From: Streptomyces sp. Root431
GTDB taxonomy: Bacteria; Actinomycetota; Actinomycetes; Streptomycetales; Streptomycetaceae
Reading direction: 5' to 3'
DNA length: 64,000 nucleotides
Assembly: GCF_001426585.1 (NCBI RefSeq)
Contig: NZ_LMEI01000013.1
Coordinates: 462,462-526,461, forward strand
The position numbers and the translations under genes are program-made. The notes beneath the pieces are model-generated. The model ran no database searches. It saw nothing but the letters and a program-made list of their open reading frames with translations, and was not told the DNA's origin. How positions within the stretch are numbered: position 1 is the stretch's first letter; each line of letters starts with the position of its first letter. Positions 1 to 59,566 of this stretch are shown piece by piece.

Positions 1-927
1 CACGAGCACGGCCTTCGCGATGAGGAGCAGCGGGTTGACCCGCAGGCCCGCCATGTCCTTGTCGGACTTCAGCTCCTCGACCAGCTTCATCGTCCGCGTG
101 ATGTCGAACGTCACGAACTCGGTGACGTGCGGCGCGGTGAACGCCGAACCCACCATCGCCGCGGCGGTCGCCTTCCGTACGCCCTTGATGGGGACACGGA
201 CCTCCCGGGCGTCCGAGGACACCACGCCCGCGGCGGCAGGAGCCGGAGCCTGGGCCTGGGCCGGAGCCGGGGCGGCCGCGGGGGCCGGGGCCAGGGCGGC
301 CGGCGCGGGGGCGGGAGCCGCCGCCGCGTGGACGTCCTCGCGGGTGATGATGCCGTCCGGGCCGGTCGGGGTGACCGTCGCCAGGTCGACGCCGAGGTCC
401 TTCGCGAGCTTGCGGACCGGCGGCTTGGCCAGCGGCCGTGCGCCGGCCGGCGCGTGCCCGTTGAGCTGCTCCGGTACGGAGGCGAGGACCGGAGCGGCGG
501 GCGCGGCCGCCGGGGCGGTGCCCGCCGGGGCCTTGCGCGCGCGGCGCTTGGTGGAGCTCGCGGCCACGCCGTAGCCGACGAGGACGGGCTGGCGGCCCTT
601 GGGCTCCTCGTCCTCGACCGCCGGGGCGGCGGGGGCCGCCGCGACCGGGGCGGCCTCGGCCACCGGGGCCTCGGGCGCGGCGCCGCCGCCGACGTTCACC
701 GAGATGATGACCTGGCCGACGTCGACCGTCGTCCCCTCGGGGAAGCGCAGCTCGTGCACGGTCCCGTCGAAGGGGATCGGCAGCTCGACGGCGGCCTTGG
801 CCGTCTCGACCTCGCACACGACCTGTCCGTCGGTGACCGTGTCACCGACCTGGACGTACCACTTGAGGATCTCGGCCTCGGTGAGGCCCTCGCCCACGTC
901 GGGCATCTTGAATTCGCGGATCGTCAC
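1..927 (-). CDS. bkdC1: Branched-chain alpha-keto acid dehydrogenase E2 (dihydrolipoamide acyltransferase), 3' part outside window
   Basis: E2 core of the branched-chain keto-acid dehydrogenase complex. It transfers the acyl group from E1 to CoA through a swinging lipoyl arm. About 309 residues are visible. The lipoyl domain is residues 1-77 with the lipoylated lysine in VETAKA (K44). Ala/Pro-rich linkers follow, then a peripheral-subunit-binding domain near residues 180-215 (PVRKLAKDLGVDL). The acyltransferase domain begins and runs off the window edge. The GTG start at 927 is chosen because a GAGGAG box precedes it and the product opens MTIREFKMPDVGEG; an ATG six codons later is the alternative. 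It is the third gene of the E1alpha-E1beta-E2 operon. The visible part is intact. Confidence 0.95.
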   Translation of the reverse strand, partial: MTIREFKMPDVGEGLTEAEILKWYVQVGDTVTDGQVVCEVETAKAAVELPIPFDGTVHELRFPEGTTVDVGQVIISVNVGGGAAPEAPVAEAAPVAAAPAAPAVEDEEPKGRQPVLVGYGVAASSTKRRARKAPAGTAPAAAPAAPVLASVPEQLNGHAPAGARPLAKPPVRKLAKDLGVDLATVTPTGPDGIITREDVHAAAAPAPAPAALAPAPAAAPAPAQAQAPAPAAAGVVSSDAREVRVPIKGVRKATAAAMVGSAFTAPHVTEFVTFDITRTMKLVEELKSDKDMAGLRVNPLLLIAKAVLV

Positions 928-24031: not shown

Positions 24032-24132
24032 CGTGGAGGCATTTTGGCTACAGGCACCTCCAGCCTGTGGACAAACGGTTCTCCACAGCCTGGGATAGGA
24101 GCAGGTCGTCCACCGGAGAGAGGCGGGGGGAC

Positions 24133-39661: not shown

Positions 39662-39684
39662 TGTGGACAACGCCCTGTGGACAA
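39662..39684. other. Two perfect DnaA boxes in tandem
   Basis: TGTGGACAA (the reverse of TTGTCCACA, the preferred Streptomyces DnaA box) occurs at 39662-39670 and 39676-39684, 14 bp apart and in the same orientation. They lie in the short gap between two minus-strand genes. Confidence 0.7.
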
Positions 39685-39685
39685 C

Positions 39686-40768
39686 TCAGACGGCGACCGC
39701 CTCGGCCATCTCCTCCTCGGACTCCTCCGCTGCCCCGACCTTCTCGCCGGCCTGCTCCTTGCCCTTGTCCTCGGCCTTCTCCGCGCCGCTGCGCCTGGCC
39801 TCCACGGCTCCGGCGGTCACCACGAGCGCGGCTCCGGCGAGGAACCACAGGGCGAGGACGAGGACGTGTCCGCCGAGCGCGTGGCCGCCGAAGTACACGT
39901 GGCTGCGGACGCCCTCGACGAAGCCGGCGCCGTTCCAGAAGGCGTGCAGCGCGCCGAAGAAGCCGGGCTGGAGCTCGGGCCGGTAGATGCCGCCGGAGCT
40001 CGTGAAGTTGAGCATCACGAAGAGCACCATCACGCCGAGCGTGGTCCAGCGGCGCAGGAAGGTGTGGAGGCCGACGCCGACGAGCAGGATGCCGGCCGCG
40101 TACAGCCAGGACATCGCCCAGACTCCGCCGAGGCCCTGGTCGACGAGGTGGAAGACCGGTCCGGCGAACAGGGTGCCGATCAGGCTGACGACCAGCGACA
40201 TCGCGGCGGCGAGGAGGGCCCTGATCCGCATGGGCAGGACGGCGCCGGCTCCGCCGATGACGGCGACCGAGGCGTAGGAGCCGATGCTGAGGGCGACGAG
40301 CAGGAAGAAGATCCCCTGACCGGTGGGGTCGCCGGAGGCGACGGGGGCGACGTCGGTGACCTTGAGCGGGGCGTCCTGCGCGGCGGCGACCTTGGTGAAG
40401 AGCTTCTCGACGGCCATGGCGCTGGTGTCGGAGGAGCCCGAGGCGACGAGGAGCTCGGGCTGCTGGCCGGGGATGTAGGCCCCGAAGCTGCCCTGCTCGC
40501 GGAGGGAGGCGACGGCCGTCTCCCGGTCGGCGACGGTACGGACGTCGAGGGCGCCCGCGCCCTTGTCCTGGAGCGTCTGCGCGAGGACCTGGGCGCTCGG
40601 GCCGGAGCCGACGACGTCGACGCGCAGGTCGTGGGGCGCGGGGGCGTGGAAGGCGCCGAGGTAGGCGAGGCCCATGCCGACGCACATCAGCAGGGGAGTG
40701 AGCAGATGTCCGAGGACATGCCGCAATGCGCCGTTGGTGCTCGGTCCTGCGGACACCGGAACCTCCAT
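39686..40768 (-). CDS. ABC-2/YhgE-like integral membrane protein under MarR control
   Basis: 360-aa membrane protein. An N-terminal helix (about 20-42) leads to an extracytoplasmic domain (about 45-160). Five or six helices follow (IFFLLVALSIGSYASVAVIGG, LLAAAMSLVVSLIGTLFAG, WLYAAGILLVGVGLHTFL, LGVMVLFVMLNFTSSGGIY, VLVLALWFLAGAALVVTAG) and a charged Glu/Lys tail. The topology is that of YhgE/Pip or ABC-2-type exporters without their own ATPase. Divergent from a MarR gene with a shared operator, which suggests a drug- or stress-induced transporter. Confidence 0.78.
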   Translation of the reverse strand: MEVPVSAGPSTNGALRHVLGHLLTPLLMCVGMGLAYLGAFHAPAPHDLRVDVVGSGPSAQVLAQTLQDKGAGALDVRTVADRETAVASLREQGSFGAYIPGQQPELLVASGSSDTSAMAVEKLFTKVAAAQDAPLKVTDVAPVASGDPTGQGIFFLLVALSIGSYASVAVIGGAGAVLPMRIRALLAAAMSLVVSLIGTLFAGPVFHLVDQGLGGVWAMSWLYAAGILLVGVGLHTFLRRWTTLGVMVLFVMLNFTSSGGIYRPELQPGFFGALHAFWNGAGFVEGVRSHVYFGGHALGGHVLVLALWFLAGAALVVTAGAVEARRSGAEKAEDKGKEQAGEKVGAAEESEEEMAEAVAV

Positions 40769-56653: not shown

Positions 56654-57421
56654 TCAGCTCACCGGCTTCGCGTAGTGGAGGTCCACTGTGCCCGAGTAGC
56701 CCGGCAGAGTCACCGCCTTGTGGTCGTCGACTTTCCAGCCGAGCCCGTACGCCTTGACGTACAGCTGGTAGTTCTGGAGGGCCGGGGAGTCGGCGAGCGC
56801 CTTGCTCAGCTTCCCTCGGTCGCCGACGGCGGTGATCTTGTACGGGGGCGAGTAGACGCGGCCCTGGAGGATCAGGGTGTTGCCGACGCAGCGCACGGCG
56901 CTGGTGGAGATGAGCCGCTGGTCCATGACGCGGATGCCCTCGGCGCCGCCCTGCCACAGGGCGTTGACGACGGCCTGGAGGTCCTGCTGGTGGATGACGA
57001 GGTCGTTGGCCTGCGGTTCGGGGTATCCGGGGGCGGCCTGGGCGTTCGGCGGGGCGTCGTCGAGGGTGACGGTGAGGCCGGAGCCGGCGACCTCTTTGGT
57101 GCCCGCTGTGGCTTCGAGGGCGTCGAGCTTCGCGTCCTCCGCACGGGTGGAACCGTCGTCGCGTGCGGCGAGGCCGTCGACCTGGGAGCGGAGGGCAGCG
57201 GTGGACTCGTCGAGCCCGGCGTTCTTGTGGCTGCGTTCCTCGATCAGGTCGGAGAGCCTGAGCAGCGAGGCGTCCGTGCGGATATTGGTGCCCTTGGCGG
57301 TGTTGAAACTCGTGACGAAGATCAGTCCGGCGAGGGCGAAGACGGCAAGGGTGAGCACCCGGACGGGGCGCCACCTCGTGGTGCGGCCCGGCCCTGCGGG
57401 AGTGTCGGCGGAATTGCTCAA
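56654..57421 (-). CDS. DUF881 family membrane-anchored protein
   Basis: 255-aa protein: N-terminal membrane helix ([23 protein letters not shown]), a coiled-coil segment ([32 protein letters not shown]) and the DUF881 domain ([51 protein letters not shown]). DUF881 proteins are often beside crgA and division genes in actinobacteria and somewhat resemble DivIC/FtsL-type stalks. The start codon is TTG 57421. Divergent from crgA. Confidence 0.88.
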
Positions 57422-57561
57422 CGTACCCTGATCCCCTTCGGTGCCGCGGAACCACTACGCTAACGGACGCCCGGGGGACGCAGTCTTCCTCCTACGTCAC
57501 ATCCCGGCGCCAGCCACAGTTCCCTGCGCGGTCACGCAGCGCATCGACAGGAGAGTCCCTC

Positions 57562-57816
57562 GTGCCGAAGTCACGTATCCGCAAGAAGGCCGACTTCACG
57601 CCTACGCCCACCAAGCAGGCCACCAACATCAAGCTGACGAACCGCAGCTGGGTGGCGCCTGTGATGCTGGCGCTTTTCGCCATCGGGCTGGTGTGGATCG
57701 TGGTCTTCTACGTCACCGACGGTTCGATGCCGATCGAGGCGATCCGCAACTGGAACATCGTGGTGGGCTTCGGCTTCATCGCCGCGGGTTTCGGCGTCTC
57801 CACACAGTGGAAGTAG
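57562..57816 (+). CDS. crgA: Cell division inhibitor/coordinator CrgA
   Basis: 84-aa protein with two membrane helices ([21 protein letters not shown] and [16 protein letters not shown]) and a basic N-terminus ([13 protein letters not shown]). Typical CrgA length and sequence. In Streptomyces it times sporulation septation and counteracts FtsZ-ring formation; in mycobacteria it recruits septum proteins. GTG start after an AGGAGAG box. A possible -10 element TACGCT lies at 57456. Confidence 0.96.
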
Positions 57817-57865
57817 CCGGCGATTTATCGGCTGGACCGGCGGCTCGTCAAGCTCTCCCCTGAAC

Positions 57866-58110
57866 TTATCCACAGCGTTGTACACAGCACTGGATAACTT
57901 ACGAAGATCTGTGGATAACTTGCACGAGATTGACGCCGGTATGACCGCTCCCTGACCGCGATCACTCGCGGAAGGACGGGAAACACCCCTCGCCTCCCTG
58001 GAGAAACACCAGGTCAGAGGCGAGGGGTGCAGTCTTTCCCTCAGACGCGGAAACGATCCGCCCCACACTGTGGATAACTCTGGGGAAAGCTCGCGAAAGT
58101 GCTCATCCAC
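57866..58110. other. DnaA-box cluster between crgA and the rhomboid gene
   Basis: The 306-nt gap 57817-58122 holds six DnaA-type 9-mers. TTATCCACA at 57866, and TGTGGATAA at 57910 and 58068, are perfect. TTGTACACA at 57878 and TCATCCACA at 58102 have one mismatch. TTATCCAGT (reverse, 57889) has two. The first four lie within 53 bp in both orientations. There is no dnaA/dnaN or AT-rich unwinding region, so this is not oriC itself. A DnaA-box cluster near oriC that titrates DnaA has been described in S. coelicolor. Confidence 0.8.
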
Positions 58111-58122
58111 AGCCCCCTGAGC

Positions 58123-59028
58123 TCAGGTGAGCGCGGCGGATCGGGCGAGCACCAGCCCCAGGTCGATCAGGAGCAGCAGTCCACAGGCCCCGTACTGCAC
58201 GAGGTCCCTGCGCGCCCTCGGCGCGTGCACGAGTGCGTACGTCACCAGGGCGCCGCCGACGAGACCGCCGACGTGGGCCTCCCAGGAGATCCCCGGACGG
58301 GTGAACGTCATGAGCAGCGACAGCGCCACGAAGAGCACCACCGGCCGCATGTCGTGCCGCTTGCGGCGGGCCAGCACGACCCAGGCGCCGATCAGGCCGT
58401 AGACGACGCCGGAGGCGCCCAGCGAGGGCTGGTTCTGCGCGGCGACGAGATAGGCGAGCACGGAGCCGGACAGCCCGGAGAGCAGGCAGAGGGCCGCGAA
58501 CCGGATCCGGCCGAGCTCGGGCTCGACGATCCCGCCGATCACCCACAGGCCCAGCACGTTGAAGAGGATGTGCCAGACCTCCTGGTGGAGGACGGTCGAG
58601 GTCAGCAGCCGGTACCACTCGCCGTCCGCGACCCCGACGACCTCGCCAAGCGACGGCATGTAGGCGTAGCCGATGAGCACGAGCTCGTCGACGAACCGCT
58701 GCCCGAACAGCAGCACCATGAGGTAGACCGCGAGGTTGATCCCGATCAGGATCTTGGTGACGAGCCGGTCGTCGGCCGCCACCCTGCCGCCCGCGAGCGT
58801 CCGGGGCTGGTTGGCGTCGGCGGCGTGGCCGGTCCCCGAACCGTTGCGCACGCAGTCCGGGCACTGGAAGCCGACGGAGGCGGAGATCATGCACTGCGGA
58901 CAGATGGGCTTGTCGCAGCGGGCACAGCGGATGCCGGTCTCGGCCTCCGGGTGGCGGTAGCAGCGGGGCAGGCCGGACTGCGGATCCACGGGGTTTTTCG
59001 CCCCTTCCATGCCTTCTATCCCTTCCAT
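58123..59028 (-). CDS. Rhomboid-family intramembrane serine protease with N-terminal zinc-ribbon
   Basis: 301-aa protease. A B-box-like cysteine-rich N-terminus (CYRHPEAETGIRCARCDKPICPQCM...CPDC, about residues 23-60) probably binds zinc. Six membrane helices follow, with WHILFNVLGLW, the catalytic serine in LGASGVVYGLIGA and the catalytic histidine in WEAHVGGLVGG. Substrate unknown. The second codon block MEGIEGMEG allows an alternative ATG six codons downstream. 10 nt after the cyclophilin stop, in the same direction. Confidence 0.93.
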   Translation of the reverse strand: MEGIEGMEGAKNPVDPQSGLPRCYRHPEAETGIRCARCDKPICPQCMISASVGFQCPDCVRNGSGTGHAADANQPRTLAGGRVAADDRLVTKILIGINLAVYLMVLLFGQRFVDELVLIGYAYMPSLGEVVGVADGEWYRLLTSTVLHQEVWHILFNVLGLWVIGGIVEPELGRIRFAALCLLSGLSGSVLAYLVAAQNQPSLGASGVVYGLIGAWVVLARRKRHDMRPVVLFVALSLLMTFTRPGISWEAHVGGLVGGALVTYALVHAPRARRDLVQYGACGLLLLIDLGLVLARSAALT

Positions 59029-59038
59029 CGCTTCCGCC

Positions 59039-59566
59039 TCAGCGCTTCTCGATCACCACGGAGTCGATCACCACGTCCTGGAGCGGGCGCTCGGTGTGCG
59101 GGTCGGTGGCGACCGCCGCGATCGCGTCCACGACCTTCCGGCTCTCCAGGCCGGAGACCTCGCCGAAGATCGTGTGCTTGCGGTTCAGCCAGGTCGCGGC
59201 ACCGACCGTGACGAAGAACTGCGAGCCGTTGGTGCCCGGGCCGGCGTTGGCCATGGCCAGCAGGTACGGACGGTCGAAGAAGAGCTCCGGGTGGAACTCG
59301 TCGGCGAACTCGTAGCCGGGCCCGCCCGTACCGTTCCCCAGCGGGTCACCGCCCTGGATCATGAAGCCCTTGATGACCCGGTGGAAGACCGTGCCGTCGT
59401 AGAGCCGGTCCGAGGAGACCTTGCCCGTGGCGGGGTGCGTCCACTCGCGCTCGCCGCCGGCGAGTTCGACGAAGTTGCGCACCGTCTTCGGGGCGTGGAA
59501 CGGCATCAGCCGGACCTCGATGTCACCCAGGCTGGTCTTGAGGATCGCGTACAGCTGCTCGGCCAC
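59039..59566 (-). CDS. ppiA: Cyclophilin-type peptidyl-prolyl cis-trans isomerase
   Basis: 175-aa cytosolic cyclophilin. Core motifs: YDGTVFHRVIKGFMIQGGDPLGNGTGGPGYEFADEF (catalytic Arg in FHRV), LLAMANAGPGTNGSQFFVTVG, WLNRKHTIFGEV. No signal peptide. GTG start. Upstream of the rhomboid gene and probably co-transcribed. Confidence 0.95.
   Translation of the reverse strand: MAEQLYAILKTSLGDIEVRLMPFHAPKTVRNFVELAGGEREWTHPATGKVSSDRLYDGTVFHRVIKGFMIQGGDPLGNGTGGPGYEFADEFHPELFFDRPYLLAMANAGPGTNGSQFFVTVGAATWLNRKHTIFGEVSGLESRKVVDAIAAVATDPHTERPLQDVVIDSVVIEKR

Follow-up and report, generated by a model that had tools for sequence, protein, structure and literature searches.

Why should a short gap between two convergent genes of a Streptomyces chromosome carry a dense cluster of DnaA boxes outside the replication origin? 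We approached this question in a window of 64,000 nt from Streptomyces sp. Root431 (the whole stretch of DNA that was analyzed; coordinates are those of the window unless a contig is named), with DnaA boxes scored against TTRTCCACA. The crgA–rhomboid gap (57817–58122, 306 nt) holds three perfect predicted DnaA boxes, two with one mismatch and one with two mismatches (Table 1). An initial sequence-only reading had counted six DnaA-type boxes, three of them perfect, in this gap, and the count stands; the last box ends at 58111, one base beyond the limit of 58110 given there.

Table 1. Predicted features of the crgA–rhomboid gap and the genes at its borders (window coordinates).
Feature	Coordinates	Strand	Sequence	Remarks
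crgA, cell-division protein CrgA, left border	57562..57816	+		Pfam CrgA PF06781, E 1e-28; 3' end towards the element
DnaA box 1	57866..57874	+	TTATCCACA	Perfect; kept in the genus
DnaA box 2	57878..57886	+	TTGTACACA	One mismatch; 3 nt past box 1
Degenerate box 3	57889..57897	-	TTATCCAGT	Two mismatches; in the place of the inverted third box of the class-wide core
DnaA box 4	57910..57918	-	TTATCCACA	Perfect; kept in the genus
Palindrome P	57931..57944		TGACGCCGGTATGA	8/10 against the class consensus TNACACnnGTGTNA; 12 nt from box 4
Long hairpin	57985..58028			Part of the fold of the gap
Distal DnaA box 5	58069..58077	-	TTATCCACA	Perfect; usually TTGTCCACA in the genus
Weak box 6	58103..58111	+	TCATCCACA	One mismatch; few relatives have it
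Rhomboid-family membrane protease gene, right border	58123..59028	-		Pfam Rhomboid PF01694, E 9e-37; 3' end towards the element

The density of boxes is far above that expected from composition. No more than one perfect box appeared in any of 2000 dinucleotide shuffles of the gap (mean 0.003) against the three observed; with up to one mismatch allowed, 2000 such shuffles gave at most two boxes (mean 0.071), and with up to two mismatches the maximum among 500 shuffles was four against the six observed. The motif TTRTCCACA occurs 50 times in the 6.5-Mb assembly, and three lie within 220 nt only at the crgA–rhomboid gap, although the assembly is 79% complete and a second such place could be missing from it. 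The form TTATCCACA occurs 14 times in the assembly, three of them in this gap. In the 178 kb that run from the start of the window to beyond the called oriC, no other group with perfect boxes has more than two. Within the window, two perfect TTGTCCACA boxes stand in tandem on the minus strand (39662–39684), 5 nt apart and adjoining the start of a 360-aa ORF (39686–40768, minus strand), while TTGTCCACA (minus) and TTCTCCACA (plus) lie 4 nt apart at 24066–24087, inside ORFs on both strands. Outside the window, on the far side of the called oriC, two perfect boxes each are found at 577127–577215, 615734–615787 and 630004–630340 of contig C13 of this assembly (G000); these three groups are possibly the counterparts of other clusters of S. 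coelicolor.

The element is not placed as an oriC would be, that is, beside dnaA and between dnaA and dnaN: more than 20 kb separate it from dnaA. The one full DnaA match lies outside the window on the same contig (C13:542975–543460), and there is none in the window, as the sequence-only reading had maintained for the site of the cluster. We take the ORF bordering the gap before dnaA to be a probable dnaN, judged by its sequence, and call the gap between dnaA and this dnaN-like ORF, about 21 kb from the element, oriC. The called oriC has 11 one-mismatch boxes and no perfect box. In genomes chosen for few contigs, with some spans measured across contig ends as if circular, the distance between crgA and dnaA was 18.7–44.8 kb in 25 of the 26 from the genus, 15.9–38.8 kb in all five others of the family and 10–132 kb in 20 genomes of the class. 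In one member of the genus (G012, locus L105), crgA and dnaA are 6.3 Mb apart in its record, possibly through rearrangement or assembly error, and two perfect boxes are kept.

The cluster is widely shared in the genus. Among 121 genomes, 120 had crgA, and the 120 loci read include the window's own copy. A convergent rhomboid gene follows crgA in 118 of these, and the 118 gaps have four perfect boxes in 20 cases, three in 85, two in 12 and one in 1; at least two are present in 117 of the 120 loci and at least three in 105 of the 118 gaps. The exceptions are L068, with one perfect box, and L050 and L073, with no box in 800 nt. In all, 360 perfect matches fall in 34,947 nt of genus gaps, compared with a mean of 0.3 and a maximum of 10 for 60 permuted motifs. 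The position of box 2 often reads TTGTCCACA, TTTTCCACA or TCATCCACA in relatives, 12–13 nt after box 1, and that of box 3 reads TGGGGAWAA in many of them. Beyond the genus, at least two perfect boxes lie in the gap at 51 of 51 loci from 16 other genera of the family. Further, in a set of named loci (the top 80 of at least 566, ranked by likeness to an approximate CrgA query sequence; one Kitasatospora, the rest Streptomyces, with S. coelicolor not among them), the 640 nt beside crgA contain three or more perfect boxes in 79 cases and two in the remaining one. The cluster is thus inherited, since at least two perfect boxes recur in 117 of 120 genus loci and in all 51 loci of the other genera. 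The sequence-only reading had staked its interpretation on conservation of the boxes among streptomycetes, and they are conserved. Judged by its sequence, the gap is a conserved cluster of predicted DnaA boxes outside oriC that exceeds chance.

Next, we considered the class. Of 108 sampled genomes, 103 had CrgA, and removal of seven from the genus left 96 with one crgA locus each, from 36 families; left out of the counts were L205, L213 and L214 (same genus), L288 (the second match of one genome) and the second matches in four further genomes. Within 300 nt 3' of crgA, box-like sites with up to one mismatch number at least two in 79 of the 96 loci and at least one in 89, with none in the remaining seven. 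The first 100 nt have 18.3 such sites per kb and the next two bins of 100 nt have 4.8 and 1.4, against 0–0.97 in the other 27 bins. The first 200 nt hold 221 matches, against a mean of 3.9 and a maximum of 37 for 200 permuted motifs, in genomes that are related and so not independent, yet cover 36 families. Many of the class boxes are one-mismatch variants, and in some families all are in one orientation (+ + + in L192; - - in L196 and L189). The convergent neighbor of crgA is a rhomboid and/or cyclophilin gene in 60 of the 96 loci, with neither found in 36. A box-only pattern, searched in 296 class genomes, matched in 11: five from the window's genus and six from a genus of another family (g50). 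The g50 matches were taken as oriC and left uncounted, as the ORFs flanking L187 look by eye like dnaN and dnaA; three of the six were examined (L186–L188), L186 and L188 for boxes only.

Beside the boxes lies a palindrome, P, with the class consensus given in Table 1 and a 2-nt spacer. We scored it out of 10, with a threshold of at least 8/10. As P was defined from the same class loci in which it was later counted, its further support comes from control windows, from a pattern with 0 matches when read backwards (in genomes that overlap those loci) and from the places of exact P. It reaches the threshold in 75 of the 96 class loci against 14 of 551 control windows. Counted away from P, the class boxes are mainly at 0/1 (+), 13/14 (+) and 23–25 (-), and a variant phase has minus boxes at about 12 and 24. 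Of the 75 loci with P, 60 have P first after crgA, 10 are flipped and five are tied or without a box within 30 nt. In the genus, P follows box 4 by 12–13 nt in the form TGACGCCGGTGTGA, reaching 8/10 within 30 nt in 97 of 118 loci (controls 2 of 336) and falling below it in 21. Among the family's other genera it reaches the threshold in only nine of 50 loci, with 41 lower. A strict composite pattern gave 57 matches, some of which share one palindrome, in 49 of 394 class genomes and 0 when read backwards; none fell in the 40 genus genomes among the 394. We considered two known regulators as readers of P and rejected both. The half-sites of BldD have a 1-nt spacer, as against 2 nt in P. NrdR boxes, according to passages of PMC12051234, are 16-bp palindromes in pairs with spacers mostly of 15–16 bp; at nrdRJ, P sits by eye between two NrdR-like boxes and is not one of them.

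The same combination of sites recurs away from crgA. We examined 20 stretches with a strict composite match from the search of 394 genomes. Three lie at crgA and a rhomboid gene (L294, L296, L307), and two (L289, L305) at a rhomboid–cyclophilin pair, in stretches where crgA was not found. Eight precede a class II ribonucleotide reductase gene (L292, L293, L295, L297, L299, L300, L302, L303), and three, by eye only, are at nrdR-like promoters (L290, L291, L301). The remaining four are elsewhere (L298, L304, L306, L308), including one inside an ORF (L304) that may be a chance match. At L308 (1519–2024), an extended intergenic region close to a superoxide dismutase gene in a 2.0-Mb genome has several box groups, one with the palindrome. 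At L306 (1991–2022), a full composite (+ + - boxes and palindrome) stands between genes for a LysR-type regulator and a flavin reductase, in a stretch where neither crgA nor a rhomboid gene was found.

In L289 (genome G215), the palindrome overlaps the rhomboid stop codon and is followed by one one-mismatch and two two-mismatch boxes, the box adjoining the palindrome having two mismatches, and then by another convergent gene. The site is about 10 kb from dnaA. The crgA of this genome (L253) is without a box and lies 31 kb away from dnaA on the opposite flank, assuming a circular contig. In this one genome, then, the palindrome and weaker boxes are retained at the rhomboid gene without crgA. 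A pattern match to the composite lies at the same distance from dnaA in a second genome (G299).

Within 260 nt upstream of nrdR in 30 genomes, the palindrome scores at least 8/10 in 17, a count that includes a few matches away from the usual place (e.g., L413, L417), and at least one box is present in 18. Where present, the palindrome usually follows an NrdR-like box; L399, L400, L402 and other nrdR loci have P and DnaA-like boxes in the promoter with NrdR-like boxes around P. Exact TTACACNNGTGTAA has seven occurrences in four of the 30 genomes, and every one is at crgA or nrdR: three genomes of one genus (f19/g53) each have one copy in the crgA element and another upstream of nrdR, and G203 has its copy in the crgA element. 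The reversed control has four places in four of the 30 genomes, so the number alone proves little. In the three Streptomyces-genus nrdR promoters examined there is no P (best 6/10) and no box, and the nrdR link therefore fails for the window's genus in that sample.

What, then, might the element do? The sequence-only reading had proposed that it also couples replication to expression of crgA or the rhomboid gene. That part does not hold up: control of either gene is not supported because crgA is read rightwards and the rhomboid gene leftwards, with the gap at both 3' ends. A scan of 57300–59300 found no sigma-70-like promoter, though promoters of actinobacteria can be missed by this kind of scan; relative to crgA, the element is present in either orientation; and L289 has the palindrome and weaker boxes at the rhomboid 3' end free of crgA. 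These observations leave only a small chance that DnaA regulates transcription here, whether of crgA, of the rhomboid gene or of an unannotated transcript, even if the same composite upstream of nrdR–nrdJ in other families could affect transcription. The convergent setting also suits a DnaA-based barrier or anchor—a transcription roadblock, or a segregation or nucleoid site—as convergent borders recur with rhomboid and/or cyclophilin facing crgA in the class, and L289 has another convergent neighbor; with nothing specific in its favor, its chance is slim. The long hairpin probably serves as a bidirectional terminator for the convergent genes. The scan of 57300–59300 called no T-tract terminator, and an Rfam search of 57300–58700 was negative up to E 1. 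In 105 genus loci, the perfect stems found between box 4 and the distal one were mostly of 5–7 bp, so conservation of the long hairpin is not supported. It is very improbable that the inverted boxes themselves form an RNA hairpin (terminator) rather than DnaA sites. They can pair, and the whole gap folds well (z -5.2), but some families have boxes in one orientation only, the element itself takes both orientations, and the 9-mer is conserved as such, whereas a hairpin needs pairing only. Further, the second and third boxes of the class core are only 1 nt apart, which leaves no room for a loop, and the window has a separate hairpin.

The readings in which the 9-mer is a protein-binding site differ in what the boxes would do. 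A reader other than DnaA is barely credible: the palindromic arrangement of the second and third boxes would allow for one, DnaA binding being itself a prediction, but the 9-mer is identical to high-affinity DnaA boxes of E. coli and S. coelicolor tabulated in PMC4285127. Passive titration, with the boxes a mere sink for free DnaA and the palindrome unrelated, is an unlikely reading that nevertheless draws on several observations: the gap has perfect boxes and the called oriC none, conservation of the palindrome is poor in most of the family's other genera, and the S. coelicolor cluster D78 is said to bind DnaA about eightfold better than oriC. A cluster of that species is also described, in a review, as repressing untimely initiation. 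However, boxes and palindrome have a spacing and an orientation that recur from family to family, which a pure sink would not need, and many class boxes are one-mismatch variants.

We favor, with a probability of about 60%, the reading of the gap as a non-coding DNA element that is bound by DnaA and would act on DnaA itself, not on the neighboring genes. Action on DnaA is favored because the geometry is conserved, the element takes both orientations, it lies between gene ends and near oriC, and its boxes are stronger than those of the called oriC. Located about 21 kb from oriC, it would be copied soon after initiation; its strong boxes and a putative palindrome-binding protein would gather DnaA in a complex distant from oriC, and this complex would sequester DnaA or change its nucleotide state and so set the initiation frequency. 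We infer here the binding of DnaA, a partner protein and an effect in one of two directions: repression as at datA, which stimulates DnaA-ATP hydrolysis and whose loss leads to untimely initiation, or reactivation as at DARS, which frees DnaA of its ADP. A datA-like role, as suggested by the sequence-only reading, is plausible, and the element probably helps decide the timing of chromosome copying. Several points weigh against action on DnaA. The nearness of oriC may be no more than a consequence of conserved gene order, and G012 keeps its boxes 6.3 Mb away; two of 120 genus and seven of 96 class loci are box-free; P is weak in the window's copy; the strict composite is absent from 40 genus genomes; exact TTACACNNGTGTAA barely outnumbers its reversed control, even if all its places are at crgA or nrdR; and the partner protein is hypothetical.

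A wider proposal is that of a class-wide actinomycete DnaA-control element, an evolutionarily independent counterpart of datA and DARS, with a three-box core phased to the site of a putative dimeric partner and with the same sites at nrdR–nrdJ promoters coordinating initiation with DNA-precursor supply. We regard this only as tentative and, on balance, doubtful; it is weakened by the reversed TTACACNNGTGTAA control, by the lack of strict composite matches in the genus and by the weak boxes of L289. If it is true, P and boxes at nrdR–nrdJ would let DnaA and its partner link initiation to the supply of DNA precursors. To our knowledge, no Hda-type system has been described for actinobacteria, and we know of little on DnaA restraint outside E. 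coli and B. subtilis. A recurrent DnaA-box architecture in dozens of actinobacterial families offers a defined target for replication timing, the palindrome points to a putative DnaA partner possibly shared with ribonucleotide-reductase control, and the Streptomyces locus can be deleted with coding sequence untouched.

The closest relatives of the element are the DnaA-box clusters near oriC in S. coelicolor, reportedly named H69, H24 and D78 by Smulczyk-Krawczyszyn et al. (2006, J Bacteriol 188:6184), a study whose in vivo work was reportedly on D78. Cosmid H69 presumably covers crgA, and cluster H69 may hence be the crgA–rhomboid locus. Like the element, these clusters lie outside but near oriC, in the same genus. 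The initiation-repressing role that the sequence-only reading had mentioned for such a cluster is indeed stated in passages of PMC5742627 and PMC4585315, which describe the S. coelicolor clusters as repressing untimely initiation. The same passages credit B. subtilis clusters (Okumura et al. 2012, cited in both) with this function; these too are Gram-positive DnaA-box clusters, likened here by description. Titles and abstract openings among the matches listed, which cover few subscription journals, contain no description of an element beside crgA, which may still be published, and the two papers with both crgA and a DnaA box draw, in their accessible parts, no connection between the two.

Outside replication control, the nearest likeness is the NrdR-controlled nrdRJ promoter of many class genomes, where P is followed by DnaA-like boxes as in the element; it differs in having NrdR boxes, of which the crgA element has none by eye, and three genus nrdR promoters are without P. 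E. coli datA is described in a passage of PMC5742627 as a non-coding box cluster with an IHF site at a required spacing and essential boxes in one direction. The element resembles it in combining a box cluster with a candidate site for a second protein, here a 14-bp palindrome at a recurrent phase, but its three perfect boxes run +, -, - whereas the essential boxes of datA share one direction. E. coli DARS1 and DARS2 have, according to the same source, a three-box core with one box opposing two at constant spacing, and DARS2 has partner sites. By our assignment on one strand, the DARS2 boxes run + + - at 0, 12 and 26, compared with + + - at 0, 13 and 23 in the class core; the facing boxes are 5 nt apart in DARS2 and 1 nt apart in the class core, and the third box is degenerate in the window. 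A DARS-type three-box topology alone arises by chance one time in four and is weak evidence. What the present analysis adds to the clusters of S. coelicolor is conservation across the class, a palindrome and a recurrent geometry.
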